This document shows positions 5,857 through 62,849 of a DNA stretch of 64,000 nt, piece after piece; within the stretch, counting starts at the first letter, position 1; each line of letters begins with the position of its first letter. Origin of the DNA: Diprion similis (Eukaryota > Arthropoda > Insecta > Hymenoptera > Diprionidae); NCBI RefSeq assembly GCF_021155765.1, contig NC_060106.1:69501-133500 (forward strand), written 5' to 3'. Below the pieces are notes generated by a model, which saw nothing but the letters and a program-made list of their open reading frames with translations, had not been told where the DNA came from and did not search any database. A program made the translations under genes and the position numbers.

Positions 5857-5859
5857 TCA
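5854..5859 (-). other. Candidate readthrough stop, LINE copy B (TGA CTA)
   Basis: ORF1 ends TGA at 5859-5857, followed by CTA GCG. The downstream codons stay open in the ORF1 frame through the linker into the endonuclease motif IAQLNANSLL. UGA followed by CUA is an established leaky context in eukaryotes. Readthrough in this element is an inference. Confidence 0.55.
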
Positions 5860-8436: not shown

Positions 8437-8439
8437 TCA
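8434..8439 (-). other. Candidate readthrough stop, LINE copy D (TGA CTA G)
   Basis: ORF1 ends TGA at 8439-8437, followed by CTA GCT. From here the same frame is open for 21 codons to an ATG and on into the ORF2 endonuclease. The stop matches the strongest known eukaryotic readthrough context, UGA-CUA-G. Because this copy does have an ATG just before the endonuclease, reinitiation remains an alternative here. Confidence 0.55.
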
Positions 8440-9552: not shown

Positions 9553-10148
9553 TATTGTAGAAATTCAGTAAACTTTAGCGAAAAGATGGTATTACTATAG
9601 AGTTATATCTAGTCAGCTGGCGAGTGTTCTATGGTGGGAGAGCGAGACAGCGCAAGAGAGTGTACACAATACACACCAGCACCACACACTTGTATAGTCC
9701 AAAGTCCAAATTTGACCATCTAGTAATTTCAAGAGAGTATGCAAGGTATACAGCAGATAGACGGTTGATGCCCACACTACGAACACATTACACGCAGGTT
9801 GGCGAAGACCGTTTAAATCACAGTTTAAATCACAGTTCCGTAGATTACACAACACGGGTGAGACACATTGCCCACGTATATAACGCACACAGGTCTGCGT
9901 TGCGCAGATAAGAGTCGCAGTAGCTTTCACTATAACTGTCAATTGAGACAAAGCGCGATAGCTAAAACGCTATTAACACAGACACTGTACAGTTCAGCAC
10001 AAAAGATCGCAGTTACTGGAACATCGAGTTTTACCTAACTAATGATTGAACTACGTTCCAATACTTTTGCTATAAACTGAACCGCAGGAATATGTGATAA
10101 GAACAGAGCACGAAACGAGCACAACTTTTCCTTTCCTGTCTGCCTCCT

Positions 10149-10522
10149 GAGAGGGAGAGGGAGAGGGAGAGGGAGAGGGAGAGGGAGAGGGAGAGGGAGA
10201 GGGAGAGGGAGAGGGAGAGGGAGAGGGAGAGGGAGAGGGAGAGGGAGAGGGAGAGGGAGAGGGAGAGGGAGAGGGAGAGGGAGAGGGAGAGGGAGAGGGA
10301 GAGGGAGAGGGAGAGGGAGAGGGAGAGGGAGAGGGAGAGGGAGAGGGAGAGGGAGAGGGAGAGGGAGAGGGAGAGGGAGAGGGAGAGGGAGAGGGAGAGG
10401 GAGAGGGAGAGGGAGAGGGAGAGGGAGAGGGAGAGGGAGAGGGAGAGGGAGAGGGAGAGGGAGAGGGAGAGGGAGAGGGAGAGGGAGAGGGAGAGGGAGA
10501 GGGAGAGGGAGAGGGAGAGGGA
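10149..10522. repeat. (GAGGGA)n array, about 62 copies
   Basis: An almost perfect hexamer array of about 370 bp. It lies between the 5' end of copy D (left) and the 3' end of copy C (right). Read in LINE sense it is (CCCTCT)n placed directly after the AATCAATC tail of copy C. Long Leu-Ser frames across it are artefacts of the repeat. Its exact length may be collapsed or variable. Confidence 0.95.
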
Positions 10523-11602
10523 TTGATTTAAGAGAGATTTACTAGCTTTCGCTGCTTTGATTTTTACATACATTATTTCTACTTTACATCATCTAATCTT
10601 ACATTAACGCTTGTTCTTATTCTAGTTTTACATAAATTTATATATTGTTACGCAACTCTCCTTATTTCTACTTTCAATAATCTTTTAAATTCTAATATGT
10701 TTCGTGCGGCTTTTGTCTCTTCACTAAGTTTATTGTACATTTCAAATCCTTTGTACGTCAAGCTCTTTTGCCCTTCACTCGTTCTGCTAAATTTTACATT
10801 TATATTGCCTTTCTGTCTCGTATTGTACTTATGTCTTTTCTCTATAAATTTTATTTACTACTTTAAAAACAAATAAACACACATTATATTCCATCCTCTG
10901 TCGTACATTCATAAAACCTAGTGCTTCCAGCATATCGTCTATTCTTGTATATCTGTCACATTTTAAAATGGCTCTCATGGCCCTGTTTTGAGTTTTTTGT
11001 AAAATGTCCATCCAGTATTTATTGACATTCAGTAACAATGTATTACAATATTCGAAATGTGGTGCAACAATACTTTTATATATTGTAACTAGTGTATTCG
11101 AACTTACATATCTACTTACTCTATACATAAAATTTATTTTCTTCGCAATTTTTTTAACCATATATGCCGCCAAATTACTAAATCTCATATTCTCGTCTAA
11201 TATTATACCAAGGTACTTCATTTCCGTAACCTCATTTATTTTATCACCTTTTACTCTTATATCACAGCTATTTTGTATATATTTTTTCCTCTCATCCCGT
11301 ATCATCATGAACTTTGTTTTTGTCGTATTTAGTGTGAGTGCATTTACTTGTAACCACTTCGCTATTCTTTCCAAGTCTTTGTTTAACTTATTTTCTATAA
11401 TACTGCTATCTTTGTCACTTACGTATATTATTGTATCATCCGCAAAACACTTACATGACGCGAACTCTAATTTCTTTATAATGTCATTTATATATATTAC
11501 AAATAGTAAAGGGCCAAGGACCGATCCCTGTGGAACCCCATGTCTCGTATTTTTTTTCTCAGATTTACTATGCCCAAATTTTACCTCTTGCTTTCGATGG
11601 AT
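10523..11602 (-). pseudogene. LINE copy C: 5'-truncated RT fragment (family 2)
   Basis: The minus strand is open from the 5' edge near 11570 down to 10829 and encodes the back half of a reverse transcriptase. It shows HGVPQGSVLGPLLFVIYI, the catalytic CFADDTIIYV, LNTTKTKFMMI, EMKYLGIILDENMRF, the thumb/C-terminal block VAPHFEYCNTLL, and LQKTQNRAMRAIL. A 3' UTR of about 300 bp follows and ends in AATCAATC against the hexamer array. It matches the C-terminal part of copies F and K, so it belongs to the second LINE family, not the family of B, D and E. Confidence 0.85.
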
Positions 11603-11788: not shown

Positions 11789-14644
11789 TTAAGAGGTAGA
11801 CGCTCGAGAAAACTCAGTTTCGAAGAGATACTGTCGGAGAGCTAACCTAAAACTAGGGTACGTACGAGCCGAGCGAATAGAGCACGGAAGGGAGTCCCAC
11901 AGGTAAAGAGAGGATACCGCAAAAGACTTACGGTACGCTTCGGTGTTACACTGTGGAATAACGAAATCGCCCCGTTCCCGGCGAGATGGACGAGTTAAGC
12001 AATCGGATCGGCGAACGATCGGCTTACCAGATCGGATGACGGAGTAGAAGAGCGAGCACTGGAAGAAAATCCTGCGGTCCCGTACACACAGCCATCCTAA
12101 TCCACGGCGGTGCGGGGTGACGTGTTCGTCCCTAGCTATCCCGCACACAAAACGCACACACGAGTTCTGGAGTCGCTGCAGACGGGTGTTAAGTACTCCC
12201 GGGATGTCACTGAAGACAGTTGAACAATAGTCAAACAGAGGGAAGACGAGAGCCGTGACCAGGTGTATACGTAACTGGCGTGAGAGTAGACGGCGTAAGG
12301 CAGAAAGTTGGCGGAGAGCACAGTGTACGCGATTTGAAATCACATCTACTTGCGGGCCCCAGCACAGCGAGCAGTCAATGAGCAGTCCCAGATTGCGAAC
12401 GGACTGGGAGAAACTGACGGGAACGCCATTGAGGATCACTCGAGGAATTGACTCGAGGTCAAGCCTAGAGACATACGGTAGACTGCCTAGGATGATGGAT
12501 TGAGTCTTCAGAGGATTAAGGCTCAGTGAGTTGGCGCACGACCAGCGCTGGACAGCCGCCACATCACGGTTCAAAAGTTCTATGGCATCGTGAATATCAT
12601 CGAAGGGACACTGGAGATATATCTGGAGATCATCGGCGTATAGTAGGTGCCGAGTGTGAGACAGAGTAAGGTGCAGATCATTAATAAATATGATGAAGAG
12701 CAGAGGGCCGAGGACAGAGCCCTGCGGCACCTCTTGGTCAAGGGTAACCCATGAAGATAGTTCACCAGAGGACCCAACCACCGCCTGTGACCGGCCCTGG
12801 AGGTAGCTGGCGATCCAGGAGAGAGCGTGCTGTGAGAAGCCGAGTGCGTGCAGTTTAGTCAGCAAAGTAGCGTGAGGAATCGAATCGAAGGCCTTAGAAA
12901 AATCAAACAAGACGAGAATGGTGACTAGGCGATTATCAATGCCGCGACGAACATCCTCCGTGAGAAGCAACAGGGCAGTTTGCGTATTGTGGCTCCAGCG
13001 GAAACCTGATTTCCGGGGATCGAGTAGGGCGCGATCTTCGAGAAAAGACAGGATCTGAGTTAGCACAACGCGTTCAAGTACCTTGGATAGCAGGCAAAGG
13101 TTGGCGATGGGACGCATCTGCTGGAGAGATATTGGTGACTTGACTTTAGCTAGAGGGATAACTCTGGCCATTTTCCAGGTGTCAGGGAAAACCGCTGAGC
13201 TGAGCGATCGATTGAATAGCTGAAGCAGGTACGGAAAGATAGCCGGAAGAGCGTCTTTGAGGTTACGAAGAGAGATGTCGTCGACGCCACGCGACTGTGA
13301 TGAAAAGTGCGAGATGGCGTGAGATAAAGCCGTGGGTGAGATGTCAGAGAAATAAAAAAGAGAGTCGTCAAACAGTGGAGGTGGAAGGACAGCAAAGAAT
13401 TGTGCGACCTCAAGAGAACCGCCAGGGCGGCGAGAGACAGCAGCGAAGTGCGTATTGAGCTCCTCAGGCGAAAAGCCAGCACAGTCGACCCTTTGCGTGG
13501 AGGCAAGGCCGAGGGACCTGAGCTCGTTCCAAAGTCCACGAGCATGGGTGATTCCAGCAAGCCGATCGGCATAAAATCGGGAGCGGGCGTCGGAGATTAG
13601 CTTGTGCAGCGCATCCCGGGCGTTGCGGAAGGATAATAGATCAGCACTAGATCTCGACCGTTTGTAACGACGGTAGAGTGCATCACGCGCATGCAGCTGA
13701 ACCTGCAGGTTTGGAAAGATCCAGGGCGGCGCAGATCGCCTAGGAATGAACGAGCGAAGTGGGGCTAATGCATTCAGCGCTTGGGTGATGTTGAGTTGCG
13801 TGCAGTGAAGTAAATCGTTAACCGAGGCCGTAGACGAGAGGGAAAAACACTCCCAGTCAGAGGAATCGAGAAAGCCAATGAAGTCATCAGTTGTGAAGCT
13901 GCGGTAGGAGCGTGCAGTAATGAGCCTGGGCTCAGATGGAGGTGGCCAGCATAGACTGACGAAGATTAAATCGTGGCCAGCGATAAATGGAATCTCAGAT
14001 TGCCCATAGCTCTTTACGAAATCGGAGTTGCTCACGAGACAAAGGTCGAGTAAGGAGTCGGCTGTGTGCGAATGGTGAGTTGGCCGATAGGGCACCATGT
14101 ACAGAGCTCGAGTAAGGCAGAAAGAGCGGACGTTTTCAGCTTCGTAGGTGCTGGAGAGCTGATTGGCATTAAAATCGCCCAATATGATAGAAAATGAGTA
14201 GTTGCAGGACAGGCGATCAAAATCACAGCCAAAAGACGCTAAGTTTGTTGTTTTTGGCGGGCGGTAGACTACGCAGACGAGAAACGGCGGAATAGAAGTC
14301 GACTTGATTTCCACGAGAAGGTACTCAGGAGCCCCAGAGTAGAGAGAAGGGGAGCTCGCAAGGATTCTACCACGCAGAGGATTGCAGTAGTATAAAGCTA
14401 TCCCACCGCCTAGCTTACCAAGACGATCGTTTCGAAGTAAAGAGAAACCTGGTAGAGATACGGCAGCGTCCGTGATTTCCGAGTGAAGCCAGGACTCACT
14501 GACAGCAATGACGTGGTGAGAAGAGGCAACGAAGTGAAATCGCAGGTAATCTAAGTGGCCACGGATGGAGTTCGCATTTACGTGGCATATATTTAGCGTT
14601 GCGCGTGTTGGTCCTATAGCGATCGGTGGTTCCGGAGGAGTGAG
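11789..14644 (-). CDS. LINE copy E ORF2: intact endonuclease-reverse transcriptase, no AUG start
   Basis: About 950 residues counted from the codon after the ORF1 stop. Endonuclease motifs in order are CHVNANSIRGHL, AVSESWLHSE, RLGKLGGGIALYY, VYRPPK, LGDFNANQL and FIAGHDLIFV. The RT shows QMRPIANLCLLSKVLERVV, LVLFDFSKAFDSIPH, VPQGSVLGPLLFIIFIND and the catalytic LLYADDLQIYL. The end carries SLYLWDSLPCSIRSA. The enzyme would nick target DNA and reverse transcribe element RNA from the nick. The frame is the ORF1 frame. The first in-frame ATG is at 14098, after the catalytic GDFN motif, so AUG initiation cannot give a whole endonuclease. Expression as an ORF1-ORF2 readthrough fusion fits best; non-AUG initiation or reinitiation is the alternative. 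Confidence 0.9.
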   Translation of the reverse strand, partial: LTPPEPPIAIGPTRATLNICHVNANSIRGHLDYLRFHFVASSHHVIAVSESWLHSEITDAAVSLPGFSLLRNDRLGKLGGGIALYYCNPLRGRILASSPSLYSGAPEYLLVEIKSTSIPPFLVCVVYRPPKTTNLASFGCDFDRLSCNYSFSIILGDFNANQLSSTYEAENVRSFCLTRALYMVPYRPTHHSHTADSLLDLCLVSNSDFVKSYGQSEIPFIAGHDLIFVSLCWPPPSEPRLITARSYRSFTTDDFIGFLDSSDWECFSLSSTASVNDLLHCTQLNITQALNALAPLRSFIPRRSAPPWIFPNLQVQLHARDALYRRYKRSRSSADLLSFRNARDALHKLISDARSRFYADRLAGITHARGLWNELRSLGLASTQRVDCAGFSPEELNTHFAAVSRRPGGSLEVAQFFAVLPPPLFDDSLFYFSDISPTALSHAISHFSSQSRGVDDISLRNLKDALPAIFPYLLQLFNRSLSSAVFPDTWKMARVIPLAKVKSPISLQQMRPIANLCLLSKVLERVVLTQILSFLEDRALLDPRKSGFRWSHNTQTALLLLTEDVRRGIDNRLVTILVLFDFSKAFDSIPHATLLTKLHALGFSQHALSWIASYLQGRSQAVVGSSGELSSWVTLDQEVPQGSVLGPLLFIIFINDLHLTLSHTRHLLYADDLQIYLQCPFDDIHDAIELLNRDVAAVQRWSCANSLSLNPLKTQSIILGSLPYVSRLDLESIPRVILNGVPVSFSQSVRNLGLLIDCSLCWGPQVDVISNRVHCALRQLSALRRLLSRQLRIHLVTALVFPLFDYCSTVFSDIPGVLNTRLQRLQNSCVRFVCGIARDEHVTPHRRGLGWLCVRDRRIFFQCSLFYSVIRSGKPIVRRSDCLTRPSRRERGDFVIPQCNTEAYRKSFAVSSLYLWDSLPCSIRSARTYPSFRLALRQYLFETEFSRASTS

Positions 14645-14647
14645 TCA
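14642..14647 (-). other. Candidate readthrough stop, LINE copy E (TGA CTC)
   Basis: ORF1 ends TGA at 14647-14645, followed by CTC ACT. The same frame is then open for the entire ORF2. With 183 codons between this stop and the first downstream ATG, this copy is the clearest case for decoding through the stop. Confidence 0.6.
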
Positions 14648-15850
14648 TTGCTGAGTATGATGTGAAGCGGATGTTGACAGTTGCGAGACAGAGGAAACTC
14701 TCGAATTATCTTGCAGGCCTGCCCGAGTGAAACTGGCTGGAGCACCACGACCGCGGCCGCGCCCGCGGGCAGAGACTGGTGCGAATCCAGAAGCACCACG
14801 ATCTTGAGAGGAGCCCGATTGTGTCGCACGAGGAGAAGAAGGTGGAGTCTCGGCTTCAAATGCCTCAAGGTCGGCTATGGAGCGGATGCGACGGGTACGC
14901 TCACCGTCCCCAAGTTTGAGTAATATGACGCCGTCAGAATGCCAGACGTACCTGTAGCCCCTGGCCCTAGCTGCGGTCCTGGTTGCAACAAGAAGTTTGT
15001 GGACATTGCTAGGGAGAGCCTCGTTGACACGGATGGTCGTGACCGGTCCGGGAGGCTGAGGGTCAAGGTCTGACGAACGAAGAACACCCTTGGACTTTCT
15101 ACCAGCGATGAGGCGCTGACAAAGATTGGATGAGCGAAGCCGGGCAATGATTGGCAGCGGAGCGTCCTTCACATCTCTGCGGGCTCGGGAACGAGATATA
15201 AGGAGGCGAGCTGACAATATATCGTCCGCCACCAGAGTAACTTCGAGGGCAGCGGCGACTTGCAGGACGACGGCAGAGGCGACCTCGGACGAGGCGCATG
15301 GGGCGCCAGAGATAATCAGCTCGGACTCACTGAAATGAGCCGAAGTACGTCGCATTTCAAGATCGCAGGCATCCTGGGAGCGTTCAAGCTCAGCAACCGT
15401 AGACTGGAGCTTCTTAAGTCCCTCAGAGAGAGCATGATTTTGGCCCTCTAGGTCTGCAATACGGGCAGTGAGTTCGTCAATTTGCGTCTGTAAGGCAAGC
15501 AGCCCACTGAGACTAGTTTCGACATCATTGAAACGAGTTCCAACCTCGTCAAATCTGCGGTCGATCCGACGCATCATGCTCTCAAAGAACTCACGATCAG
15601 CAGGGGGAACATCAGCAGTGCTTGTTGAAGTTCCGGTGGGCTGTGATGCCGAAGAGGGCGGGTGCCCGATAGACAGGGGCAGAGAGCCAGCGTGCTGATA
15701 TTGCGAGGCGGTGTTACGACAGCATCGCGAGGAGCCCGTGGAGGCGACTTTTTTCTTCAGGCAGCTAGGATGATAGTGACAGCTGCATTCGACACAAAGT
15801 ACGGCGTCAACAACCAACTTGCCACAGCCGGCACAGAGTCGAGTAGGCAT
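14645..15850 (-). CDS. LINE copy E ORF1 protein with PHD-type finger and coiled coil
   Basis: 401 residues, open. The N-terminus carries a zinc finger ([17 protein letters not shown], then YHPSC, then RCC). Residues of about 85-165 are heptad-rich ([18 protein letters not shown], then [11 protein letters not shown]), likely a trimer or multimer coiled coil. A globular C-terminal module ([12 protein letters not shown], then [14 protein letters not shown], then [14 protein letters not shown]) aligns in layout with copies B, D, L and N. The last 50 residues are Gly/Arg/Ser-rich ([11 protein letters not shown]), which may add RNA binding. Expected role is RNA chaperone and ribonucleoprotein formation. 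Confidence 0.85.
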
Positions 15851-16239: not shown

Positions 16240-16640
16240 GAGAGAGGGAGAGGGAGAGGGAGAGGGAGAGGGAGAGGGAGAGGGAGAGGGAGAGGGAGAG
16301 GGAGAGGGAGAGGGAGAGGGAGAGGGAGAGGGAGAGGGAGAGGGAGAGGGAGAGGGAGAGGGAGAGGGAGAGGGAGAGGGAGAGGGAGAGGGAGAGGGAG
16401 AGGGAGAGGGAGAGGGAGAGGGAGAGGGAGAGGGAGAGGGAGAGGGAGAGGGAGAGGGAGAGGGAGAGGGAGAGGGAGAGGGAGAGGGAGAGGGAGAGGG
16501 AGAGGGAGAGGGAGAGGGAGAGGGAGAGGGAGAGGGAGAGGGAGAGGGAGAGGGAGAGGGAGAGGGAGAGGGAGAGGGAGAGGGAGAGGGAGAGGGAGAG
16601 GGAGAGGGAGAGGGAGAGGGAGAGGGAGAGGGAGAGGGAT
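16240..16640. repeat. (GAGGGA)n array, about 66 copies
   Basis: An almost perfect hexamer array of about 400 bp between the 5' end of copy E and the 3' end of copy F (AATAAATCACTATCAATCAATC in LINE sense). Gly-Arg and Leu-Ser frames across it are artefacts. Confidence 0.95.
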
Positions 16641-21083: not shown

Positions 21084-24000
21084 ATGTTGAACGAATCGTC
21101 GCCAACGGAGATTCAGAAATGGAATAAATTTGGGATGCAAAATATCCGGCTTCTAAACAAAATTCTGCGAAACGCTCTAACGATGGGTGAGAAAACGAAA
21201 ATTATCACAACGATCGGACTCTTGAAGTCGCTGGGGGAAAAATTCAAACGGCTTCGAAAAACGGGTGACGGTACGCGAAAACAAAGACGAAGCGATCGCG
21301 TACACTGGGAAGAATTGGTGTCTGCTTTCGAGGGAAGAATACGAACAGGATCCATCACCAATTTGAAGCATAAAGACGTGGAGAGGTTTCTAGAAGACGC
21401 AAAGTTACTTTCTGTGACAAGACTGAAAAACGCTTTGCGGAAAACGGGGAGCCTGAAAGTAAACGCCTTCCTGGCTTGTAATTCGAAGTAAAAAAGGATG
21501 ATCACACAGTAGAAGAGAACAAATTCTTCAATACGAAAAACGAAATCATCCTCCAGACAACGGATATTAACGAATGGTTCATCGAAAATGTAACAAACCG
21601 TTTGTTAACAAAGGTGGAAGATTTCCAGGAAAAGGATTCAGGCTGGTCGTTACTTGAAATTATCAATCTTGCCGTCAACATTAACAAGTATACGCCACTT
21701 CGAGGCGGTCTCTATACCTACACCCCGTTACCGAAGCACATCAGAGATACGAAGGCTGTGGTGAACATCCGAAACAACGACTCGTATTGCTTTCTTTGGT
21801 CGGTCACCGCAGCTCTGTTCCCAGCTAACGACAGAAATCCCAACATGACCAGCTCGTATCCACATTTCAGCTCAGTGCTACGGTATGACAGTATAAACTT
21901 TCCTATGTCTCTAGATAAAAATACTATTTCGAAATTTGAAAAACTCAACGGACTTTCCATCAATGTTTATGGTATAGACCAAGATGGTGGGAAAAAAAGT
22001 GAAATAGTACCAATTCACTTGAGTCAGAATTAGTCTGATAAACCCGTAATTCATCTCTTGGCAGTGGAAACCGAAATTACAGACGACGATGATGATGATG
22101 GTGATGATGTTGATTTAGAATATTGTGAAAAACATAGAATCTATCTTTTTGCTTGGATTCGGAATTTGTCGTGATTGACAAGCTCTCAAATTCCGAAACG
22201 TGCACATCATATTTGGTTATGTGATAGATGTCTAACGCATTTTGACTCTGAAAGGTGTTTAACAAAGCACAGAATCGATTGCTTCAAGTTAAACGAGACC
22301 AAAGTTGTTTTACCCGAGGAAGAGGAAAAGATTCTGAAATTCAAAAATTTCAAGCACAAAGAAACCGTTCCGTTCTGTATTTACGCGGATCGAGAATGCT
22401 TGTTGCAAGCTACTAACATTCAAGTGTCAGAAAATAGAACAATTTACCAAAATCCTATTCCTTACAGTATAGGATATTACCTGCATTGCAACTTTAACGA
22501 TTCCATTTCAATGTTCAAAATTAACCGCGGGGAGACTTGCATTGAATGGTTTAAGAACGAGTTGGAGCAATTGGCACACTCGTTAGAAACGCATTTTAAA
22601 ACTATTGTACCTATGGAGTCGCTGAACTTCAATCAAATTACCGAATTCAATTTATCAAAGGTATGTCATATTTGTGAAAAACCGTTCACGCGCGAAGACG
22701 TCAAACACCGTGATCACTGTCATTTCACAGGAAAGTACCGTGGTCCTGCGCATCAAAGCTGTAATCTTAATTATCAAAACTCGCATACCATCCCAGTGAT
22801 ATTTCATAATCTGTCGGGATACGATTCGCATTTTTTGATTAAACATTGGCCACAACGGCCACAACTTTTCAGGGTACTATTCAGCTTTTACCCGTGAACA
22901 AAGAAAAGTACATTACATTCACAAAACATGTCAAGGGGACAGATATAAAGTTTAGATTTCTCAGATTCGTTCCGTTTTATGCCCAGCAGTCTCGAAAAAT
23001 TGGCAACATTTTTGAATGACAATCAAAAAGCAATTACACGTGAATTTTGCACAAGCTCTGAAAAATTCGAGTTATTAACCAGGAAGGGTGTTTTTCCGTA
23101 CGATTACATGGATGGTTGGGAGAAGCTCGAGGACGTAAAGTTACCACCTAAAGGAAGATTTTATTCAAAATTGAACATCCAAGATATTTCGGATAACGAT
23201 TACGCACACGCGTGTAAAGTTTGGCAAGCTTTTAACTTTAAAACGTTGGGGGAATATTCAGACTTATATTTGCAAACTGATGTTTTTCTGTTGGCTGACG
23301 TTTTTGAAAACTTCCGACAAAATTGTTATGCAACGTACAACCTGGACCCGTTACATTATTTTACAGCGCCCGGTCTCTCGTTTGACGCAATGTTGAAATG
23401 TACCGGTATCGAACTCGAGCTTCTCACTGATATTGATATGCTTATGTTTATAGAAAAAGGTATTCGAGGTGGTGTGTCTCAATGCTCTAATCGATATGCA
23501 AAGGCTAACAATAGATACATGAGAGATGCTTTCAATCCAACGCTCGAAGAGTCTCATCTCATGTACTTCGACGTTAACAACTTGTACGGTGCGGCTATGA
23601 GCTTTGCTCTGCCATGCAGTTCTTTCGAATGGATAATAGATTTCAGACAATTTGATGTTTTTGCCATCACAGACAAAGCGGAGTTTGGCTACATATTAGA
23701 GGTAGATTTGGAATATTCCGAGGAACTGCATGGAATGCATAAAGATTAACCACTGTGTCCGGAACACTACATACCTCCCATCTCACAAAGTAAGCAACCA
23801 AAATTGACGACCACGCTACTTTCCAAGCAAAACTACGTTGTTCACTACCGCGTCTTGAAACAATGCTTAGAATGAGGTTTGAAACTAGCTAAAATTCGTA
23901 GAGTTCTAAAGTTTAGACAAACACCGTGGCTCAAAAAGTACATAGATTCAAATACAGACTTACGCACAAAATCAAACAATGAATTCGAAAAAAACTTCTA

Positions 24001-24783
24001 TAAACCGATGAACAACGCAGTTTTTGGTAAGACAATGGAAAATGTTAGGAAGTATAGAGATGTCAGGCTGATCACGAAATGGGATGGAAGATACGGTGCT
24101 AGAGCTACTATAGCCAAACCAAATTTCCACAGTTGTACAATCTTTGATAAAGATATGATAATAGTTGAATTGCGTAAAACGACAGTCAAACTCAACAAAC
24201 CATTGTATGCAGGCTTCTCCATTTTAGATTTCGCGAAGACCTTTATCTACGATTTCCACTACAAGTATATTAGAACGAAATTTGGGCATCAGGCGTAATT
24301 AATGTACACTGACACGGATAGTTTGATATATCACTTCACCGTCCCCAACATTTATGAATGCATCAGACAGGACTTGGATAAATTTGATACCTCCGATTAT
24401 CCACCTGACAACGTCTACGGAATGCCGTTGGTTAGCAAAAAGTTCTGCGTTTGATGAAAGATGAGTGTAACGGAAAAATAATGGCGGAATTTATTGGCTT
24501 AAGAGCGAAGTTGTACTCATTCAGAGTGATGGGGGAGGATAAAGATGAAAAACGAGCCAAGGGTGTCAAAGGATCCCTGTTAAAAACTATAACCTTCAAT
24601 GATTACTTAAAGTGTGCTTTGGAACACGAAGATTTAGTCGAACGTCAGAGTCTGATACAGAGTCAGAAGCATCACGTCTATACCATTGAACGGAAAAGAG
24701 TAGCACTGAGCTGGAACGACGATACGCGTATCGTATTTCGGAACACAACCGATACGCTGCCGTGGGGCTACAAGACCTGCAGT
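21084..24783 (+). pseudogene. Polinton protein-primed DNA polymerase B, broken
   Basis: Pieces in different frames line up as one long family B polymerase. The first ~135 codons are open (from 21084), then there is a break near 21489. Further stops or shifts lie near 22031, 22173, 22890, 23746, 24296 and 24452. Recognisable parts are CIYADRECLLQ (exonuclease I region), a treble-clef zinc module of the recombination endonuclease VII type (CHICEKPF, then DHCHFTGKYRGPAHQ), YDSHFLIK, palm motif A ([12 protein letters not shown]), motif B ([17 protein letters not shown]) and motif C (YTDTDSLIY). It would replicate the element from a protein primer, but it cannot now give a working enzyme. No repaired sequence is offered. 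Confidence 0.9.
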
Positions 24784-24866
24784 TGAACTGAACATCCGTA
24801 TGAATTGTATCTCTGGGATGTAAAAATGAAGACAAATACTTGAAAAATAATTTCGTTTATTTAACA

Positions 24867-25793
24867 TTACATATCAGATTCATTTATCTAACTGTTGTGT
24901 GTAGTATCAAAACCTAGCCACTTGACGTATAATTTTTTTCTCCGCTTCTGAAGCACCTTCTCCACCAGATAGATGTCCGGATGTTCCACCTTAAGGAGCT
25001 CCTGTTCGTAGAAACCACCAGCGATGGGTTGACCTTGGTAGTCTTTGAGCTTGTACGTCACAGGATTGGTATTTTCTACTTGGCTTATTGTGAATATTTC
25101 AGTCGTCCAATTGGGAGTGTAACCTTTTTCAAAGACGTTTTCGAACTTGCTGGTTCGAACTTTGTCACCTGTTTTGAACTTTGCCGGTTTGGAAGGTTCC
25201 GCTCGAAGCCCTCCTTACGACTGACGTAATACCAGCCTTTCGTTCGCAACGGTGACATCCGATGGTTTCATTCTTATGGTTCGGTGTTTCGTGTTGTTGT
25301 AAGCCGATACTAAATCAGATAAGATGTCGAGCCACTTGTAGCTTTCTTGCATACTGAACCGTTTCCACATTTTATTCCTCAACGTACGATCAAACCGTTC
25401 ACAGATCGAAGCCTTAAAATTACTGTACGTGGAGTGGAGTTTAATTCCATAGCGTGACATAAGAAATTCAAATTTTGAGTTGTAGAATTCCGTTCCTCTA
25501 TCGACGTGTAATTTTTTTGGTACACGTCCTTGAGTTAGCACAGATTCCATGGCCTTTGTAACATCATCCCCGGACTTGCTCCTTATCGGTACAGCCCACG
25601 CTTACTTTGAAAAGATATCAATGACTGTGAGCATATACTTGTAGCCTTTGTTTTGTCCTGCGTATGACATCATATCAACAAGATCCGCCTGCCAGGTCTC
25701 GTCGATGCCGCGCACGTCTACACGGCGACGCGGGTAATTCCGGCGTGCAGATTTATGCAGTTCCGTCACCAGCGTTAGCTTTTTCTCGTTCAT
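24867..25793 (-). pseudogene. Polinton retrovirus-type integrase with chromodomain, broken
   Basis: On the minus strand the catalytic core shows WQADLVDMMSYAG (first Asp), HVDRGTEFYNSKFEF (second Asp) and FKASICERFDRTLRNKMW (Glu), the D,D,E triad of Polinton integrases. The C-terminal part contains YKLKDYQGQPIAGGFYEQ and a chromodomain-like LYVKWLGF. Breaks occur near 25600 (stop), 25215 (stop), in the A-rich run near 24945, and at a TAG near 24885. The expected N-terminal zinc-binding region is not visible. It would have cut and joined element ends, giving the 6-bp duplication seen. Confidence 0.85.
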
Positions 25794-26117
25794 ATTCCAA
25801 TGCTCTTAGTCTGGTGTCCAATTTGGAAATGATTTCAGCGTTTCAAATCGACAAGTCTCTGCCTGTTCTAAAATCTGCGTAAAAGGTATTCAAAGCTTTC
25901 CCCGTGGTGATCTCCAAAGCTTTGATCATTTAATCGAGATTGTCGTTTTGTTTTTGCAGCACGTTGAATTTTCGTCGTAAGATTTTCAATGTTACAGCGT
26001 TGTTTTGCTCAACAGGTTCTGCGACATTGCACAGTCTTTTATTCTGTACATCGTAATGACCGTCCGCAGTGATTTGAAATCCGACACCGGGAGGACCGCT
26101 GTTGCGACGTATACATT
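25794..26117 (-). pseudogene. Conserved Polinton protein of unknown role, fragment
   Basis: The minus strand shows GVGFQITADGHYDVQNKRLC, then NVAEPVEQNNAVTLKILRR and a helical tail with two in-frame stops (after QNDNLD and GRDLSI). The motif in which residual terms of the form 'NV.EP...NDAV' recur is common in virion-associated proteins of Polintons and related viruses, so a fibre or minor virion role is possible. I cannot assign it more closely. It reads directly towards the integrase with no gap. Confidence 0.5.
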
Positions 26118-27052
26118 TTATAGCAAAAATGCTGTAGAGTCATTAGATTTTAAGTACGGACATGCCGAACCCGGTATATGGCCTCAGCCAGGTCAGTCCG
26201 TGCCGCGCTGTCCGGCAGCTGTAACTATCCCACATCTGGCAAACAATATACTTATTCGGGACCTTCAAATCAAGTAATAAATACCTTTTTGGCGAGTCAA
26301 ATCATAGCACGAATTTCACCCACATGGGTTTTTCCCATTTTTTACGACACTCAGTTGGTCAACAGATGTGTACGGGAACCAGCCTGGACAACGCGGCTGC
26401 GACACGGTCGCCTATTGTTTAACTTTTACACTCTTACCTGGTCCTCTCCCCACTTTCTACGCCATTCCTTTTCATTTTCTCAACCAATCCGAAAATTTGT
26501 TATATTCCTACCAATCAGAAATCAGGACCAAGAATTTTTCTGACTTCCGTCTCCTACCCTTAAACCAAAACTCCCACTCCTATTATCATCTACCTCAGAA
26601 ATATTTCGAAACTAAAACCTCAGTCTAAAACGATCCTCACGGTGGTACACACTAGTACCATCGCCCCGAAACTGAACTAAAGATCATTGGCTCCGGGAAT
26701 ATCTAACTTATATTCTCGTTATTAAACTATCGAAAACAAACGAAACTCATTCAACAAACTAACTTCTAACCAATTTTCTAACTACAACTGTAAACTTCTC
26801 ACCATATTGATTCGTACTTAAATATATTCAAATATAAATATTATACTCCGAGTCAATCAATATCTTATCCAGAAGTACCTACAATCCTTTAATTAGAATT
26901 GTAGGAGTTCACGTCGTGCGAGACGCGATTCCAATAATTGTGCCGCGGACGCGTGAACAACCGCGATTACCCGCAGCTGTGTTTTTATCCAGATGCCGTC
27001 CGAACACATCGACGCTCATCTCGGATATGAATGCAAAAGCGATAAGAGCTGC
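26118..27052. other. 935-bp non-coding stretch inside the Polinton, possible old insertion
   Basis: No plausible gene is visible. The composition differs from the neighbours (long C/T- and A-rich runs, 26440-26880). A TGTAG at 26131 and CTACA ending at 26883 could be LTR tips, but no matching flanking duplication is seen. CCTACAAT...ATTGTAGG at about 26877-26905 forms an 8-bp-stem hairpin. Two minus-strand genes end or begin on either side. Confidence 0.35.
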
Positions 27053-27951
27053 TTAATTAATGATTTCTGCTTCGCGTAGTTCTTCGATAATGGACATTAT
27101 TTCGTTGTTGTGACTCGGATTACCCGCCGCCTGGGATGCAAGGAGTAGACGAAGACGCTCCACTAACTCGTTTGGATCATCTCAGAAAACGTATTCCGTT
27201 TGAACGCCCTGTCGTGTAATCATAGCTTGCGGAAGTAGACCTTTACCCTTTCGCTGAGGTGATGGTGAATAATCCAACAATTCGGCAATGACATTTCTCA
27301 ATTTGTAACTGTTATCGCTTCGAACAGCTCCGTGAGACGAGTAATACTTTTTATGTGCGTTCGTTTTGAGGATTATGTTTCTATTATTCTCCCGATCTCT
27401 GTCACTCAAATAGGACCTGTCCGGCTTCTTTTTGAACAAAAGTTCCAGCAACCCCTTCGTTTTTGGGTAAAGCATATCCCTGATACGGATCTGGTCACTC
27501 TCAAAACTCATTAACGAATCACCACTCATTAGTCCGGTTGAGAGGTTGCGTACACCTACACGTTGTCCAATTCACTTTTTCTCGTCTCATCTCTCATCAT
27601 TTCGAAATACTCATTCTCGGTTTCATCAACAGGTGTTTTTACAATTGTTTTATCTCCTGCCGAAGCAAAGGAATCATCCAATTCCGAGACTGTTTCATTG
27701 TTCGTTTCATTTTTCATCTGCTTTATTTCTTGTTTAATTTCTGCCACTTCTTGTTTCAAAGATTTCGTCTCTTTTGTAATATTCACCAGTTCTCGCAACG
27801 GAGCCACTACTGGTTTGAAAACGTCGCTCAATTTCCGAGCAGTGGATTCCTTGCCCGACTTAAGCAATCTGTGTTTTCGACGGATCGCAGCACTCGCTCG
27901 AGCGATCTGATGTAGGTCTTCTTTTTGCTCAGCAATTTTGGAGCTCTGCAT
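27053..27951 (-). pseudogene. Conserved Polinton protein of unknown function, broken
   Basis: The N-terminal half (27951 down to 27556) is helical and charged (KSLKQEVAEIKQEIKQMK, a likely coiled coil). After a frameshift near 27545 it continues with GDSLMSFESDQIRIRDMLY, TKGLLELLFKKKPDR, NAHKKYYSSHG and, after a TGA at 27182-27184, DDPNELVERLRLLLASQAA up to a stop at 27053. Proteins with this C-terminal DDPNEL...NNEI block are common in insect Polintons. Role is unknown; position beside the ATPase suggests a virion or packaging job. Confidence 0.65.
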
Positions 27952-28011
27952 GTTGACGCAACTGAGTCTGCAACGCTACTGTGTCTCTCGCTTGGAAACG
28001 CAAGATTTTTA

Positions 28012-28722
28012 TTACTTTTCCAAGCTAATGAGAGAATCGAATCCCTTCCTACAACGTCCTTGGTTGGGCTCGCTGTCTTTGTCGATCACAAGAAACCCGT
28101 ACTTATCACCGTTTCAGTATGCGGAGCACACATCTTTGAACTGTATGTGAGACATATCGGTGTTCACATGGTCGTTGTATACGTGTCTCAGGTTCATATC
28201 GTCTTGTTTGAATAACACGAGTAAGTTTACGTTGTCGCGCACGAGATGTTTGGGAATACGCGCGTACGTCTGACAGAGATAGAAACAATCAACATCGTGA
28301 TGCCTGCCCATGCAGAAGTAGGCTCTCATATTGTCCTGCTTCTCGCACGCTACATCATCAAAAACGATTATCGAGTTGGGTCGTGCTTCGTCCGGTGTAA
28401 TCACTTGCTCACGCTTGGTATAAGAAAAATACTCCATATTCTCAATGTTGTCCAACAATTGCTTCAACGATTGGTACTTCGCTTGGTTAAGCGATTTTGA
28501 GTAGATATAGATATTTTCAAATCTAAGTCCATTGGAATAGGTTATAAGTGTGAGCAACGCATTTGTTTTACCAGAATTAGACGGTCCGCAGAATATTGCA
28601 CGCACACTGTTCGGAAGTAATTCCCCATGCCGTTTTTGTCTTTTCACATTTTGCTCTGAAAGTTTGTCGAAATTTATCACGGGAAGCTGAGTAGGTTGTG
28701 CCTCAAACCGCATGTAGGACAT
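28012..28722 (-). pseudogene. Polinton genome-packaging ATPase (FtsK/HerA type), late nonsense mutation
   Basis: 203 codons are open from the ATG at 28722. Walker A is GPSNSGKT (residues 46-53) and Walker B is IIVFDD (about 118-123). A TGA at 28114-28116 ends the frame after DVCSAY, but the same frame continues with NGDKYGFLVIDKDSEPNQG to a TAA at 28012-28014, so about 33 residues are lost. This class of ATPase drives DNA into capsids in adeno-like and Polinton elements. The catalytic core is whole, so residual activity cannot be excluded from sequence. Confidence 0.85.
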
Positions 28723-28790
28723 GACTGACCAGATTTGCTATAAATACCCCGGTTTTAAACCTTTCCCGTCAGTCAGAGCCTGAAGATGAT
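28722..28790. promoter_or_regulatory. Bidirectional Polinton promoter
   Basis: Sixty-four bases separate the ATPase ATG (minus) and the PLA2-gene ATG (plus). One AT-rich core reads GCTATAAATACC on the plus strand (near 28737-28748) and GGTATTTATAGC on the minus strand, so it can serve as a TATA box both ways. TCAGTCAGAGCC follows on the plus side and GGTCAGTCATG on the minus side; TCAGT is the arthropod initiator consensus. Confidence 0.6.
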
Positions 28791-29573
28791 CGTGCACAGA
28801 AGTAAACGAAGCAGCAAACGGCAACATCGCGGTAAAGGTCTGTTGAATAAAATCAATCTGTTGTTATTACTATAGTATATAATAAGAGTTATCAATACTG
28901 TAGACCTGGTACATAGTTGACAAAGAGACTCGCGCGAGGTGATCCGGGAATCAATCCTATCGACGCAGCTTGCAAGAACCATGACATGGCTTACTCGCAA
29001 AATCGTAAAAATCTTGAAGTCAGGAACGCGGCTGATAGGGTATAGGCTAAAAAAGCGTGGAAATGGGTCTTCGCACCGGACGCCAATTCAAGCGAGAAAG
29101 CAGCGGCTTGGGCGGTAGCTAATACAATGAAAGTGAAATCAAAACTAGGAATGGGAATTCGAAAACCGAAAAACGTGACATTACGAAAAATTATAAGTGC
29201 TGCGAAACGATCCATGATTCCGAGCAACGATGCAAAAGTAGCTATCAAGTCTGCGCTTAAGGGAGCTGAAAACGCTGTTCAAAAAGCGGGTGGTAAATGT
29301 AAAGTGCGAACACCGCGCGTACTACCGGTACCTTCAAAAGTTGGTGAATTTCTACCATTCTTGATGCCCATTTTCGCTGGACTTAGTGCTAAAGGCGCGA
29401 TAGCTGGTGGTGCGGCAGGTATAGCAAAAGCTTTGAACGATGCGACCGCTGCTGAACGAGAACTGGAGGAGAGCAAACGGCACAACAAAACCATAGAAGC
29501 TATCGCGTTGGGTAAAGGACTTCATTTGAAACCGTATAAAACGGGTCTCGGTCTCCATCTTCCAAAAAACTAG
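28787..29573 (+). pseudogene. Polinton phospholipase A2-like virion protein, broken
   Basis: It starts with a basic stretch (MIVHRSKRSSKRQHRGKG). After a frameshift near 28880 it reads YQYCRPGT, then a TAG, then RLARGDPGINPIDAACKNHD, the PLA2-like calcium loop and His-Asp site of the type seen in parvovirus VP1. A second TAG lies near 29038. From 29127 the frame is open for 148 codons: GIRKPKNVTLRKIISAAK, then VRTPRVLPVPSK, then a hydrophobic stretch FLPFLMPIFAGL, then KPYKTGLGLHLP at the end. Such PLA2-basic tail proteins in Polintons are thought to help membrane passage. This copy is dead. Confidence 0.8.
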
Positions 29574-29611
29574 ATGCGAAGCTACCACGTCGAGCGTTGA
29601 CCGATTGAGAC

Positions 29612-30672: not shown

Positions 30673-30675
30673 ACG

Positions 30676-30849: not shown

Positions 30850-30886
30850 GAATCCGATTTAGCTGTTTCGTCGTCTGCTACGTACC

Positions 30887-36285: not shown

Positions 36286-37560
36286 GTGACAGCGAGAATG
36301 GAGAAAGGGAAATGGGAATGCGATGCATGTAAAAAGGAAATAAAAACCGAAGTTATCAAATGTCGACCGTGTGGGAAAATATTTCACCGAGGATGTGTAC
36401 AATTCCATAAAAAACAAAATAAGGATAAAGAATTAGTAACATGCAAAGGAGAGAAGGACAAGGTGAGTCGCATTAGAGAAAAAAGTAGAATAGGACAAAT
36501 AGATAGAGGCAGCAACGTCAGTGGTAACACAGAGATAATGAAGACAGATCCAATAGAGATAACACTCCAAAAGATCCTTGAAATTGTAAAAAAAATGAAA
36601 ACAGAGAAACAAGGAAAGGAAGAGATTAAAAACATAGTCAAGGAAGGAATAAAGGAAATAGTAAATGAAGAAATGCGAGGAATACGAGAGGAGATGGAAA
36701 AAATCAAGAAGTTATGGAGTAAGGTCAGCAACACAGCAGCAAGTCAAACAGTGGAAAACTATGCAGCTGTTGTAAGAAGAAATGAAGGAGATAACCTACT
36801 TGTCATAAAATCAAAAACGATACAAGAAAGTGTGGAAACATCGAAGGACGTGCGAGAGAAAGTAAATACAAAAGCAATACCTGTCGGAGTCTCAAGAATC
36901 AGAAATGGGAATAATGGATCGTTAATAATCGGATGCGACACAAAAAAAGAATTGGCCGAATTGAAAACGACGGTCGAAACAACAATGAGTGATGAGGTAA
37001 CAGTGACAGAGGTGAAACAGAAGAATCCGAAAATGAAGATAGTAGGTATACAAGATGAAGATATGGAAGACGATGACGATACAATACGAGATGCAATAAC
37101 GACCCAAAATAACATTGATACAGAAAACGAAAAATTTTATTTCAATATTGTCAAGAAGCAGATGAAAGAAGACAGAGAATGAGAAAGAAATGGTGCGATT
37201 ATAGCAAAAGTAGATGCTGAGACACATAAGGAAATAATGAGAACTGGAAGAGTAAGCATCGGCTGGATGAGATGTATGGCGTATAACTTCGAAAGTGTCA
37301 TGAGATGCTTTAAATGCTGGGGCTATAACCACATGGGTAAATACTGTAAGAAGGAAGAGGTATGCAAGCGATGTGCTGGAAATCATAACAGTGAAGAGTG
37401 CCAAGAAACAAAACAACAATGTATCAATTGTAAGAACAGAAGACAAATATATAAAGATAAAACGCTGAAAGATGACCACGACGCGATGCACCGAAATTGC
37501 CCGAGTTATTTAAGAAAAATAGAAGAGGAACGAAGACGAATAAAAAAACCGGAGCAATAG
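36286..37560 (+). pseudogene. LINE copy K ORF1: PHD-type finger plus two zinc knuckles, one in-frame stop
   Basis: From ATG 36286 (or the ATG four codons later) the N-terminus carries a PHD-like finger (CDACKKEIKTEVIKCRPC, then FHRGC, then LVTC). A long Lys/Glu-rich coiled-coil segment follows (EIVKKMKTEKQGKEEIKN). A TGA at 37180-37182 interrupts the frame. Beyond it the same frame carries two CCHC knuckles (RCFKCWGYNHMGKYC and CKRCAGNHNSEEC) and ends TAG at 37558-37560. It would bind element RNA and form particles. The finger-plus-knuckle layout is shared with copy H, where the TGA is absent. Confidence 0.85.
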
Positions 37561-43978: not shown

Positions 43979-44656
43979 ATGACTGAGCTGCGAGGCGATG
44001 TCACGAAGTTGACTGCATCTCAGAAAGCGATGGTGGGTCGTATCGAGTCTCTTGAAAGGAGCTCTGAATGTGCTTGGCGCGACATATCTGCCGTGAGAGA
44101 GGAAAATCTCGCACTAAAAAGCCAAATCAGCGAACTCTCTAGCCGGCTGAACACGGTTGAGGCGCACGAAAAATCAAACGAGCTTACCATTGCTGGAGTG
44201 CCTTATGCTGAGGGGGAGTCAGCTTACGATCTCGTTGAGAGTATATGCACTGCTGCCCGAGCTGACATTTCCTCAAACAGCATACTCAGTGCCTTTCGAC
44301 TCGAGACTTCTCGGCCTCAAAATCCAGCTAAGATTCTGGTCCAGCGCGCAAACAGTCATCTGTGCGACCGACTAATGGCGTGCGCTCGCCAGAATAAACC
44401 GACACTCGTCGCCTCGGACGTAGATAGTGCTTTCGGTGGTGCCAGAGTTTTCTTAAATCGTAATTTGCCGAGCGCCGTATATGCTCTGCAAAAAGCTGCT
44501 CGCTCTTGGGCTCGATCTCGGCCGGACATCTTGTCGGTTCGATTTCGGAGTAACGTAGTATACCTGAGAAACTCTGAGCAAATTGTCCTTCGAACCATGA
44601 GTGACCTCGACAACCTCAAGGCCGACTTCGCAGATGAAACCGCGTCTAGCAGCTGA
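43979..44656 (+). pseudogene. LINE copy L ORF1, N-terminally truncated
   Basis: 225 open codons covering the coiled coil (RIESLERSSECAW, then VREENLALKSQISELSSRL) and the C-terminal module (ELTIAGVPYAEGE, then RVFLNRNLPSAVYALQ, then LSVRFRSNVVYLRN). The PHD finger is lost through 5' truncation. It ends TGA at 44654-44656, followed by CTC in frame with ORF2. Confidence 0.8.
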
Positions 44657-48289: not shown

Positions 48290-49350
48290 ATGTCGTCACG
48301 TTGCGCTTCGTGTGGTCGACTCGCAGATCGAGGAGGCGAGACCGTTCGTTGTACAGGGGATTGTCGCGGTGTTTTCCATACAGACTGTGCAATCAAAAAA
48401 TTTTCCTTCGACCCTAGTGATATTAACACGAGCTTTCGTTGCGATCCTTGCGCCACGCACCGCTCAGGCATTACTCCTCGTACACCACCGCTAGATAATT
48501 TTTCACCCCCCTCCTTGTCCAACTCTCATGACCCTCCCCCCTCAAATCAACATGATTCTCAGTCAGCGCGTCAACCTTCCCTCTCCCTTTCCTCCGACCG
48601 TGAGCTTCTCTTATCGATGAGTTATAATCTCTCATCTTTTATCGCTCAGCAAACCGTGGTAAACGAAGACCTCACGAATAAATTGAATAACATTGAAAAT
48701 CACACACGGCTCCTTCAAGTTCACGACGAAAGAATCACGCGTCTTGAAGTCAGTAATGCGAAATTAATCGAACAAAATACCGAATTGACTCGCGAGATAC
48801 GATCTTTGAAAGCCGGCGCTCCGGCTGTGTCGGTTACCCCGCCACTCTCCGCTGAAATCACCATCTCCGGAGTGCCGTTGTCTGTTGTCGACTCACCTCA
48901 AGTGATAGTCGACAAAGTCTTCCATGCTCTCGGAATACCCGATTTAGTTACATTCTCGAAATTCGTAGTCTTGATAAGAAATCTAATACAGCAAATGCAC
49001 CAGTCAACGCCTCGCATCCCTCGTCTAGCACTAGCAATAACAATAAAAAGAAATCTTTTATTATCACTTCAAAATCTCATCAGGTCAGAGATTATATCAT
49101 AAGCAAAAAGAGAGCCATAAAAGATCTATCATCGAGAGAGATTTTTGGTACTATCGAACGCGTTAATATTTTCGTTAACGAATTTTTACCGGCTCCGCTT
49201 TACAATCTACTGCGTCTTACTAAAGCTCGAGCGAGTAGCAACGGATACAAATCCGCCTGGTATCGATCTGGTACCATTTTTGCACGGAAAAACGACAGCC
49301 AAACTCCTATCATCATACATTCTGAGGCTGACCTCGATAAATTAGTTTGA
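48290..49350 (+). pseudogene. LINE copy N ORF1: PHD-type finger and coiled coil, one frameshift
   Basis: It starts at ATG 48290 with a finger like that of copy D (CASCGRLADRGGETVRCTGDC, then FHTDC, then FRCDPC). A Ser/Pro-rich linker and a coiled coil follow (NNIENHTRLLQVHDERITRL). Near 48965 the frame shifts. The second frame runs through SFIITSKSHQVRDYIISKKR, IFVNEFLPAPLYNLL and KSAWYRSGTIFARKND to DLDKLV and TGA at 49348-49350. It is one small change away from the layout of copy D. Confidence 0.85.
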
Positions 49351-60610: not shown

Positions 60611-62849
60611 ATGGCGGGGGTAAATCAACCTAAGTGCCCGTGTGGGAAAATAATAAAGACGATATACCACGAGTGTAAAAGGTGCCTAAAATATTATCAC
60701 CCGTCATGCGCGGCAATACATAAAGCGTACAATAGCAAAAATGAATTAGTAAAATGTGATGGAGAAATAGAAATATATCAAGAAAATCAACGAAAAGATG
60801 CACCAAACAGCGGCGAGGAGAGGGGAGTGAAGAAAAGAAGAGATGACAGGAGAGAGGAAGACGAAAGAGAGCAAGAGTGGAGTATGGAAGAAAAAATTGA
60901 TGTAATATTGAAAACTGTTCAGAATGTAAAGGTAGAGGTATATGAAGCAAATAAAATCAAGAAGAAACTAGAAGTAATTGTTAGAGAAGAAATACAAAAA
61001 GCGGTAGCGATATTTAAAGAAGAAATTATAAAAGTGAAAACAGATATGGAAATAACGATCAAAAAAATTGTAACGAGTGAAGTGCAAGTACAAATAGAAA
61101 AATATAAAAGGGAAACAGGAAGGGGGGATAAAAGAGATGAAAATATAAGGTGGGAAAATACACGGGAACAAGGCAAAGAAACGTATGCAGTGAAAGCAGG
61201 GAAAAATCGGAAGGAAAAGGTAGTAGTTGAACCGGCCAGGGCACAGACGAGTGATGAAACTGAAGGGGAAATAGAAAACCGAATCGACATTATGGAATTG
61301 GGGATAGGAGTAGAAAGAATAGCTAAAGGACCTGGAGGGAGAATTATCCTTGACTGCCAACGAAAAGAGGATAGAGAAACACTGTAACGGTTTGAATAAG
61401 CCCGCCTAATATAAATGACTAGTATAGTAGATTTTAAGCCAAATTTGATCACTGTCGTCAGGTGTTCACGAGTTCCGTCGTGACCGTTCCTCGTTCTCAC
61501 TCTCTCGTCGACGCCTGATATAATAACATGTGAAACCATCCATATTAAGTGAGCTCGTCGAAAACGAAAAGTACATAACATATCTTAATAATTTATTTGA
61601 AAGTTAACGAAAAATATTCAAAACCTTTTATAAAAGTGCTATATAAATATATCAAAACGAACGAGGATAATAAAACGACGCAAAATTGAACGATTTACGA
61701 AAACGAAAACGAGAGAACATAATGGAAATTAAACGAATATTAATGGACGATAACGAGGCGCAAATCTGCTAGGCATATCAACGATAAGTTTTATTTCTAC
61801 ATTTATATACTATATTTTCACCGACATTTATTCTTTATTATACATTTTTAAAACATTTACACCCATATACACCAATCTACATACAAACCTAGCTTATATA
61901 CATTCATATACACGTTTCTATATACAACCTTGTTAATTTACACTTATACACACATCTATATACATAAACCTGTCTTATTTACACTCATATACACATATCT
62001 CTATACATATTTTCGCCAATTTACACCATATTTAACACAATATAAAACCGACTTATTTATTAATATTATTAATACTGTGTTTTCTTTTCTGATTTATTGA
62101 GCTTTTTTCATCTTGAAACCAAACATAAAAAAAATAAAGAAAGAGTAATCATAAATGGAAAAATTAAAATAAAATTATATATGGTATACATGTTATTTAT
62201 ACTTTTCTTATTTCTTTTATCATATTTCATTAGTGTTGTAATAGAAACAAAAAAATCTGTTACAACACTCAGCGAAGAATTAAGAAAGAATTTAGGAGAA
62301 AAATATAAAATACATGTACCAAAGCGGAATTTCCCAAAGGTAAAGATAGTGGGGATTGGGGATAAACTAAATGAAATAAATGAGGAGGAATTGATAAAAA
62401 AGATTGGGATACAAAACAGACTAGAAACGGACAGATCTGACTACAAGATAAAAATAATAAAATATCTACAGGCAGAAGGAAGGCAGGGAACGATGATTAT
62501 GGAAATGGATCCGTGTACGCACAAGCAAGTGATTGAAGCGGGTAGAATAAAGATTGGGTGGGAAAACTGTAGAGTGTACGACCATGTAAGCGTATTGAGA
62601 TGCTACAAGTGCTGTGGCTTTAACCACAAGTACAAAGATTGTCGGAATGAAACTAACTGTCGGAAATGCGCGGGAAACCATAATGGAAGAGAATGTAGAG
62701 AAATATATAAAATGTGCATAAATTGTTTGAAAATGGTGTAAAAATATAATTTAAGTGACATAGCGACTGACCATGAAGCTTACGATGTAAATTGTGAAAC
62801 GTACAAAAGAATGAGGGAAAGAGCGCAAAGAAATACACAGTACGAATAG
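60611..62849 (+). pseudogene. LINE copy H ORF1, split by a solo LTR, one in-frame stop
   Basis: From ATG 60611 it carries a finger (CPCGKIIKTIYHECKRC, then YHPSC, then LVKC), then a Lys/Glu-rich coiled coil (EIIKVKTDMEITIKKIV). The frame meets the solo LTR at 61383 (after RKEDRETL) and resumes in phase at 62269 (SEELRKNLGEKYKIHVP). Two zinc knuckles follow (RCYKCCGFNHKYKDC and CRKCAGNHNGREC). A TAA at 62739-62741 interrupts it, and the family's natural TAG is at 62847-62849. It would bind element RNA. Confidence 0.85.
61383..62264 (-). mobile_element. Solo LTR (882 bp) inside LINE copy H ORF1
   Basis: It starts TGTAACGG and ends CTGTTACA (6-bp inverted tips TGTAAC/GTTACA) and is flanked by ACAC on both sides (61379-61382 and 62265-62268). 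Ignoring it and one duplication restores the ORF1 frame. On the minus strand TATATAAATG and AATAAA lie close together (near 61800), so minus orientation is likely. The A/T-rich half (about 61850-62040) is made of degenerate TTTACAC...TATATACA repeats. No coding capacity. Confidence 0.8.

Follow-up and report, generated by a model that had tools for sequence, protein, structure and literature searches.

The window, which is the whole stretch of 64,000 nucleotides of Diprion similis DNA analysed here, has copies of two families of LINEs, termed families 1 and 2. Judged by their predicted proteins, the family 1 elements are LINEs, i.e., non-LTR retrotransposons with an APE-type endonuclease, and we take them to belong to the CR1/L2/jockey group. 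ORF1 of copy E matches the Baculo_FP_2nd domain profile (PF25298) above its cut-off, and has zinc-finger and coiled-coil matches that fall below theirs. The N terminus of copy E ORF2 matches an endonuclease profile (PF14529) above cut-off, and ORF2 also matches a reverse transcriptase profile (PF00078) with an E-value of 4e-29. Among hits with a species name, the best is to Neodiprion fabricii (60%), which fits a hymenopteran host. The family 1 features in the window are as follows.

14648..15850, minus strand: ORF1 of copy E, 401 codons from the first ATG, stop excluded
14645..14647, minus strand: candidate leaky ORF1 stop of copy E, UGA, then CUC
14579..14644, minus strand: in-frame linker of copy E, 22 codons, free of AUG in the ORF frame
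11789..14644, minus strand: ORF2 of copy E, encoding endonuclease and reverse transcriptase; 951 codons and a stop, with an open frame that begins right after the ORF1 stop
8437..8439, minus strand: ORF1 stop of copy D, UGA-CUA, in frame, with an in-frame AUG within the linker
5857..5859, minus strand: ORF1 stop of copy B, UGA-CUA, in frame, with a frame shift later
44654..44656, plus strand: ORF1 stop of copy L, UGA-CUC, in frame
49348..49350, plus strand: ORF1 stop of copy N, UGA-CUA, in frame, with ORF1 broken further upstream

An earlier sequence-only reading of this DNA had proposed that ORF1 of family 1 ends in a leaky UGA and that its frame continues into ORF2 with no usable AUG. On re-reading, the stop, the next codon and the phase of all five window junctions (B, D, E, L and N) are as it described, and the ORF1 frame is open into the endonuclease start in each of them. 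Also borne out are the position of the first in-frame AUG of copy E ORF2, at codon 183 and past the GDFN motif, the presence of an in-frame AUG ahead of the endonuclease motif in copy D only, and the frame shift of copy B downstream of its open junction.

Long arrays of the hexamer GGGAGA/TCTCCC are found at 16240-16640, at about 10100-10540 and at 59800-60060. Two of these sit 5′ of copies D and E, and perhaps represent a preferred insertion site. Other stretches of the window resemble, by eye, a Polinton/adintovirus-like element at 21482-32713 (DNA polymerase, packaging ATPase and capsid-like proteins), an open hAT-like transposase frame at 39774-41963 and a long Gypsy-like polyprotein frame at 51689-56680.

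Family 1 junctions across the genome

The 269 Mb assembly that holds the window, at C2:69501-133500, was searched with endonuclease sequences, which gave at least 90 and at least 97 matches. Junctions were read at 43 loci, in 18 further stretches and in window copies B, L and N, and 15 stretches, chosen among 69 matches to PF25298, were added. Near-duplicates (blastn identity of at least 80%) were dropped, as were loci whose retrieved sequence did not show, or did not extend to, an ORF1 in frame with the junction (L008, L013, L019, L020, L028, L031, L032, L034, L040, L050, L053, L068, L070, L071, L072, L075, L076 and L078–L082). This left 36 junctions, no two of which are 80% or more identical over 150 or more bases. 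Among the dropped loci, L068, L071, L072, L075, L078, L079 and L081 have a first in-frame stop upstream of ORF2 that is not followed by C. L080 (UGA-CUU) and L082 (UAA-CUU, with an in-frame linker AUG) proved to be in frame on reading and were kept outside the 36. A subset of 29 junctions was picked for evidence of an in-frame ORF1 and is uninformative on phase; the 36 also take in B, L009, L015, L016 and L029, which had initially seemed not to be in frame or to be disrupted, along with L157 and L159, recovered through ORF1. Within the 15 ORF1-based stretches, UGA-C precedes an in-frame ORF2 in L157, L159 and L160, L147–L152 represent families with an AUG, and L153–L156, L158 and L161 lack an apparent endonuclease after ORF1.

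The ORF1 stop is UGA in 33 of the 36 junctions, UAA in two and UAG in one. The base that follows, +4, is C in 35; the sole exception is L027, a diverged copy with UGA-AUA. The codons at +4 to +6 are CUA (11), CUC (6), CUG (4), CUU (2), CGU (4), CGC (3), CGG (1), CAC (3), CAU (1) and AUA (1), such that CU is present at +4/+5 in 23 of 36 and a strict CUA or CGG in 12. Thus the proposal of a CUA or CUC after the stop describes the five window copies, but the range of codons is wider in the genome at large. ORF2 is in the ORF1 frame in 34 of 36 junctions (P = 1.7e-14 against one third) and +4 is C in 28 of the subset of 29 (P = 2e-12 against the C content of the linker at codon position 1), although both P values assume independence of copies that are in fact related, and their strength is therefore overstated. 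L009 and L029, in which ORF2 is out of frame, nonetheless retain UGA-C. No AUG precedes the endonuclease motif in 32 of the 34 in-frame junctions, D and L016 being the exceptions. The stop, the phase and the missing AUG are accordingly conserved in diverged copies, as the sequence-only reading had expected, and none of the consensus patterns it had set against itself (an ORF2 in another frame, a conserved ORF2 AUG, or a sense codon or random stop at this site) characterizes the family.

These features might have been passively inherited from an old in-frame arrangement, without function; copies of one family are related and hence non-independent. This explanation appears extremely unlikely. 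Stop, C and phase are all retained, although the endonucleases of 20 copies have only 34 to 66% identity to that of copy E and the linkers vary from 12 to 33 codons. At the other extreme of divergence, L099, on C5, is a 99% identical sister of copy E. The two share UGA-CUC while their ORF2 stops differ (UAA at 11789-11791 in copy E, UGA in its sister), and thus the design belongs to recently active elements.

The linkers of the 29 junctions total 756 codons and have no in-frame stops, compared with 28 and 23 stops in the other two frames. From composition, 27 in-frame stops would be expected (P = 8e-13, with copies treated as independent). A dN/dS comparison had been suggested for the linker. 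In 20 pairs, some with broken frames, pN/pS is 0.58 for the linker, 0.44 for the endonuclease and 0.72 for the ORF1 end. The linker value is only weakly below 1, lies above that of the endonuclease and constitutes weak support, because pairs with broken frames are included.

The stop itself is retained. All 42 loci that have ORF1 and ORF2 homology in one frame have a stop between the two, and no stop-free ORF1-ORF2 fusion was found among them. The stop was detected by script in 38 loci; it is present according to the junction listing in L022, L027, L039 and L077 as well, where the script missed it, the ORF1 alignment having extended across it. A search for a naturally fused protein with the read-through product of copy E gave four proteins, none with more than 69% query coverage. 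The ends of ORF2 provide a control within the same elements. In 11 non-redundant ends out of 14, +4 is C in one and the stop is UGA in two or three, and the difference from the ORF1 stop has Fisher P values of 2e-8 (+4 C) and 7e-5 (UGA), again with copies treated as independent.

The sequence-only reading had also raised the possibility of a downstream stem-loop. Downstream RNA structure is not enriched in family 1 (mean z of +0.42 over 32 loci) and none was found at family 2 junctions, so that this possibility was not supported.

Two other readings of the junction were rejected. A reassigned genetic code does not fit, as UAA, UAG and UGA all serve as terminal stops of ORF2 in these elements. 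A stop-start overlap, in which CAA-UGA provides AUGA in some copies, places the AUG out of the ORF2 frame and is absent from most copies.

Family 2 and LINEs of other records

Family 2 has a different stop. By eye, its ORF1 displays a CCHC-type motif, and two copies are in the window.

37558..37560, plus strand: ORF1 stop of a family 2 copy, UAG-CAA-CGA, in frame with ORF2
62847..62849, plus strand: ORF1 stop of a family 2 copy, UAG-CAA-AGA, in frame with ORF2

The start of family 2 ORF2, used as a query, yielded 41 matches, including some to family 1; 11 stretches were fetched and eight have a readable junction. Together with five junctions read earlier, and with duplicates counted once, these provide a set of 12, i.e., 11 junctions of this genome and L130 from a record of another species. 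All 12 have UAG, then CAA or CAG, an A at +9 and ORF2 in frame. The consensus UAG-CAR-YYA fits four (L083, L103, L106 and L130) and CARNBA fits 11. The family 2 linkers have no in-frame stops in 188 codons, compared with 12 and nine in the other frames, and an in-frame linker AUG is found in three of the 12 (L100, L104 and L107/L108).

A-to-I editing can turn both UGA and UAG into UGG. Editing of this type, or splicing, might remove the stop from some transcripts, with ordinary decoding of the fusion, and would likewise preserve phase and stop. We consider this very unlikely, since it leaves the +4 C, the CAR, the CUA and the rare UAA copies unexplained, and no conserved local structure was found at junctions of either family.

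In genome contigs of bacteria and archaea, a single scan detected 35 related loci, most of which are probably eukaryotic DNA within bacterial or archaeal records. Five are in records titled Poribacteria (L125, L132, L135, L136 and L138), three of them in one bin, and these LINEs are probably sponge DNA. They have an in-frame UGA-CUA in four cases and UGA-CUC in the fifth. Their ORF1 frames are 362 to 491 codons long and the first AUG is 67 to 341 codons past the stop. Within the phylum of the L132 record, 84 genomes were searched and only the three already known gave matches; scans of viral contigs yielded one relative, which is uninformative. Passive inheritance also does not readily explain why the pattern is seen again in family 2, as well as in the Poribacteria-bin LINEs, which are elsewhere in the ORF2 tree, although the deep nodes of that tree are weak.

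ORF1 of L125 (L125:2-1474) contains the sequence GDVEVNPGP, which resembles a 2A StopGo peptide, and ORF2 of this element is also preceded by UGA-CUA. It would be unusual for a single LINE to carry two recoding devices.

A third type of stop is found in L113 (UAG-GAU, at L113:416-418), L114 (UAG-GGG, at L114:292-294) and L143 (UAG-GAA, at L143:1459-1461), reminiscent of the UAG-G of gammaretroviruses. All three have an in-frame ORF2 whose first AUG comes only after the endonuclease has begun, and no downstream structure stands out. L140/L141 has UGA-CAA in frame and is ambiguous, with a methionine at the endonuclease start, and ORF2 begins with an AUG in L126, L127, L142 and L145.

Families with an AUG-started ORF2 are also present in this genome. 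In L086 (UAA, then C) and L087/L152 (UAG, then G), ORF2 is in another frame. In L147–L151, the stop is UAA-UAU and ORF2 is in the same frame with an AUG, which is preceded by a second in-frame stop in four of the five. AUG families can therefore have an in-frame ORF2 or a +4 C as single features, whereas families 1 and 2 combine both with a missing AUG. In a tree of ORF2 proteins, the lineages without an AUG are interspersed among those with one, which suggests repeated gain or loss of the strategy, although several deep nodes have support below 0.5.

The main rival to readthrough is reinitiation adjoining the stop, or internal entry, in which ribosomes restart at the next or a nearby near-cognate codon and provide free ORF2 protein. 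Such a route is accepted or proposed for SART1 and L1, and a caliciviral case of reinitiation tolerates altered start codons, as described in parts of one review (PMC5972666). A CUG, moreover, immediately follows the stop in four of the 36 family 1 junctions. Yet a zero phase, a +4 C or UAG-CAR would be dispensable for reinitiation, and the in-frame openness extends back to the stop itself. The codon after the stop is mostly CUA, CUC, CUU, CGN or CAY, none of which is a usual start codon, and an ORF2 AUG at or near the ORF1 stop, a feature of SART1 and L1 reinitiation, is what those 32 of 34 in-frame family 1 junctions are missing. The AUG-ORF2 families L086 and L087, as noted, use another frame. 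Reinitiation is therefore considered improbable here.

Proposed readthrough of the ORF1 stop

We consider it highly probable that families 1 and 2 use programmed readthrough of the ORF1 stop to produce an ORF1-ORF2 fusion. For family 1, the sequence-only reading had already proposed this, and the phase, the missing AUG, the retained stop, family 2 and the Poribacteria-bin LINEs all argue for it at the level of sequence. Most ribosomes would terminate at the ORF1 stop and release free ORF1 protein, and a small share would insert an amino acid at a weak stop, i.e., UGA-CUN or another UGA-CNN in family 1 and UAG-CAR-NNA in family 2. These ribosomes would continue in frame via the short linker into ORF2, such that the endonuclease-reverse transcriptase would be a C-terminal extension of the ORF1 protein. 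The fusion would be made at a low, fixed ratio to ORF1, as in the gag-pol readthrough of some retroviruses. The stop, context, phase, open linker and missing AUG persist across diverged copies and in records of other species; ribosomal readthrough, its rate and the role of the fusion as the active enzyme are inferred from these.

According to portions of a study of stop contexts, any stop followed by C is weak, UGA-CUA alone provides about 1.5% readthrough, and both CARYYA and the yeast motif CARNBA stimulate readthrough (PMC4132726). Many family 1 contexts, among them CUC, CGU, CAC and CGC, would probably be weaker than CUA, which counts against readthrough. Further points against it are the downstream RNA structure that was looked for and not found, the linker pN/pS only weakly below 1, the UGA-AUA of L027, the UAA of two copies and the UAG of one, and the linker AUG in D, L016, L082 and three of the 12 family 2 junctions.

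The low output of ORF2 from two-ORF LINE RNA is an old open question, and the usual answers are reinitiation and internal entry. If readthrough operates here, the ORF1:ORF2 ratio would be set by a few bases, the reverse transcriptase would be tethered to an RNA-binding protein, as in gag-pol, and LINE activity would be tied to tRNAs and release factors. Such short signals suit a standard dual reporter, and the AUG-start families close by in the tree leave the gain and loss of the strategy open to study. On balance we lean towards a broader reading, in which readthrough would be a widespread and repeatedly evolved route to ORF1-ORF2 fusion in animal LINEs. Lineages would have settled on the leaky signals of RNA viruses, with UGA-CUA-like signals in one insect family and the Poribacteria-bin LINEs, UAG-CAR-NBA in a second family and possibly UAG-G in L113, L114 and L143, and the strategy would have been gained and lost among AUG-start relatives.

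Comparison with known systems

Readthrough is known from viruses and retroviruses and would be unusual for LINEs. No report of readthrough between LINE ORFs was found in the open-access literature; subscription papers and Repbase reports are mostly outside this scope and may describe single elements. Sections of a recoding review that cover HeT-A, TART and L1 do so without readthrough between ORFs (PMC5009743), and it is unmentioned in the corresponding portions of a paper on chicken CR1 (PMC2734521).

Family 1 most resembles Type II viral readthrough, e.g., that of alphaviruses and the ilarvirus CP-RT, in having UGA, a +4 C, often CUA, and an in-frame open extension without a conserved AUG. 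Ilarvirus leaky stops, as far as listed in part of one report, are spread over UGA-CUA, UGA-CGG and other UGA-CNN, similar to family 1 (PMC11166343). Family 1 differs in being a LINE and not a virus, in having a strict CUA or CGG in only a third of its junctions, and in the downstream stem-loop, which is present in many, albeit not all, Type II cases and was not found here. Family 2 resembles Type I (UAG-CAR-YYA, tobacco mosaic virus), with UAG-CAR throughout and YYA in four junctions, and it shares NBA of the yeast CARNBA motif in 11 of the 12. It differs from Type I in having mostly CGA instead of YYA and in being a LINE.

In gammaretrovirus gag-pol (MuLV, UAG), there is also a structural RNA-binding protein, a stop, and a polymerase in the same frame. 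The stop context is different, no pseudoknot was found in these LINEs, and they are unrelated to gammaretroviruses and without LTRs as far as examined. SART1 and L1 similarly have two adjacent ORFs in one LINE. Their ORF2, according to parts of two reviews, has an AUG or an unknown mode of initiation (PMC5972666; PMC5009743), whereas ORF2 here has no AUG and is in zero phase. The 2A StopGo peptides of non-LTR retrotransposons, described in part of the former review, are also a recoding device in LINEs (PMC5972666). These peptides separate proteins without a stop codon; in the elements described here, a stop codon would be passed.
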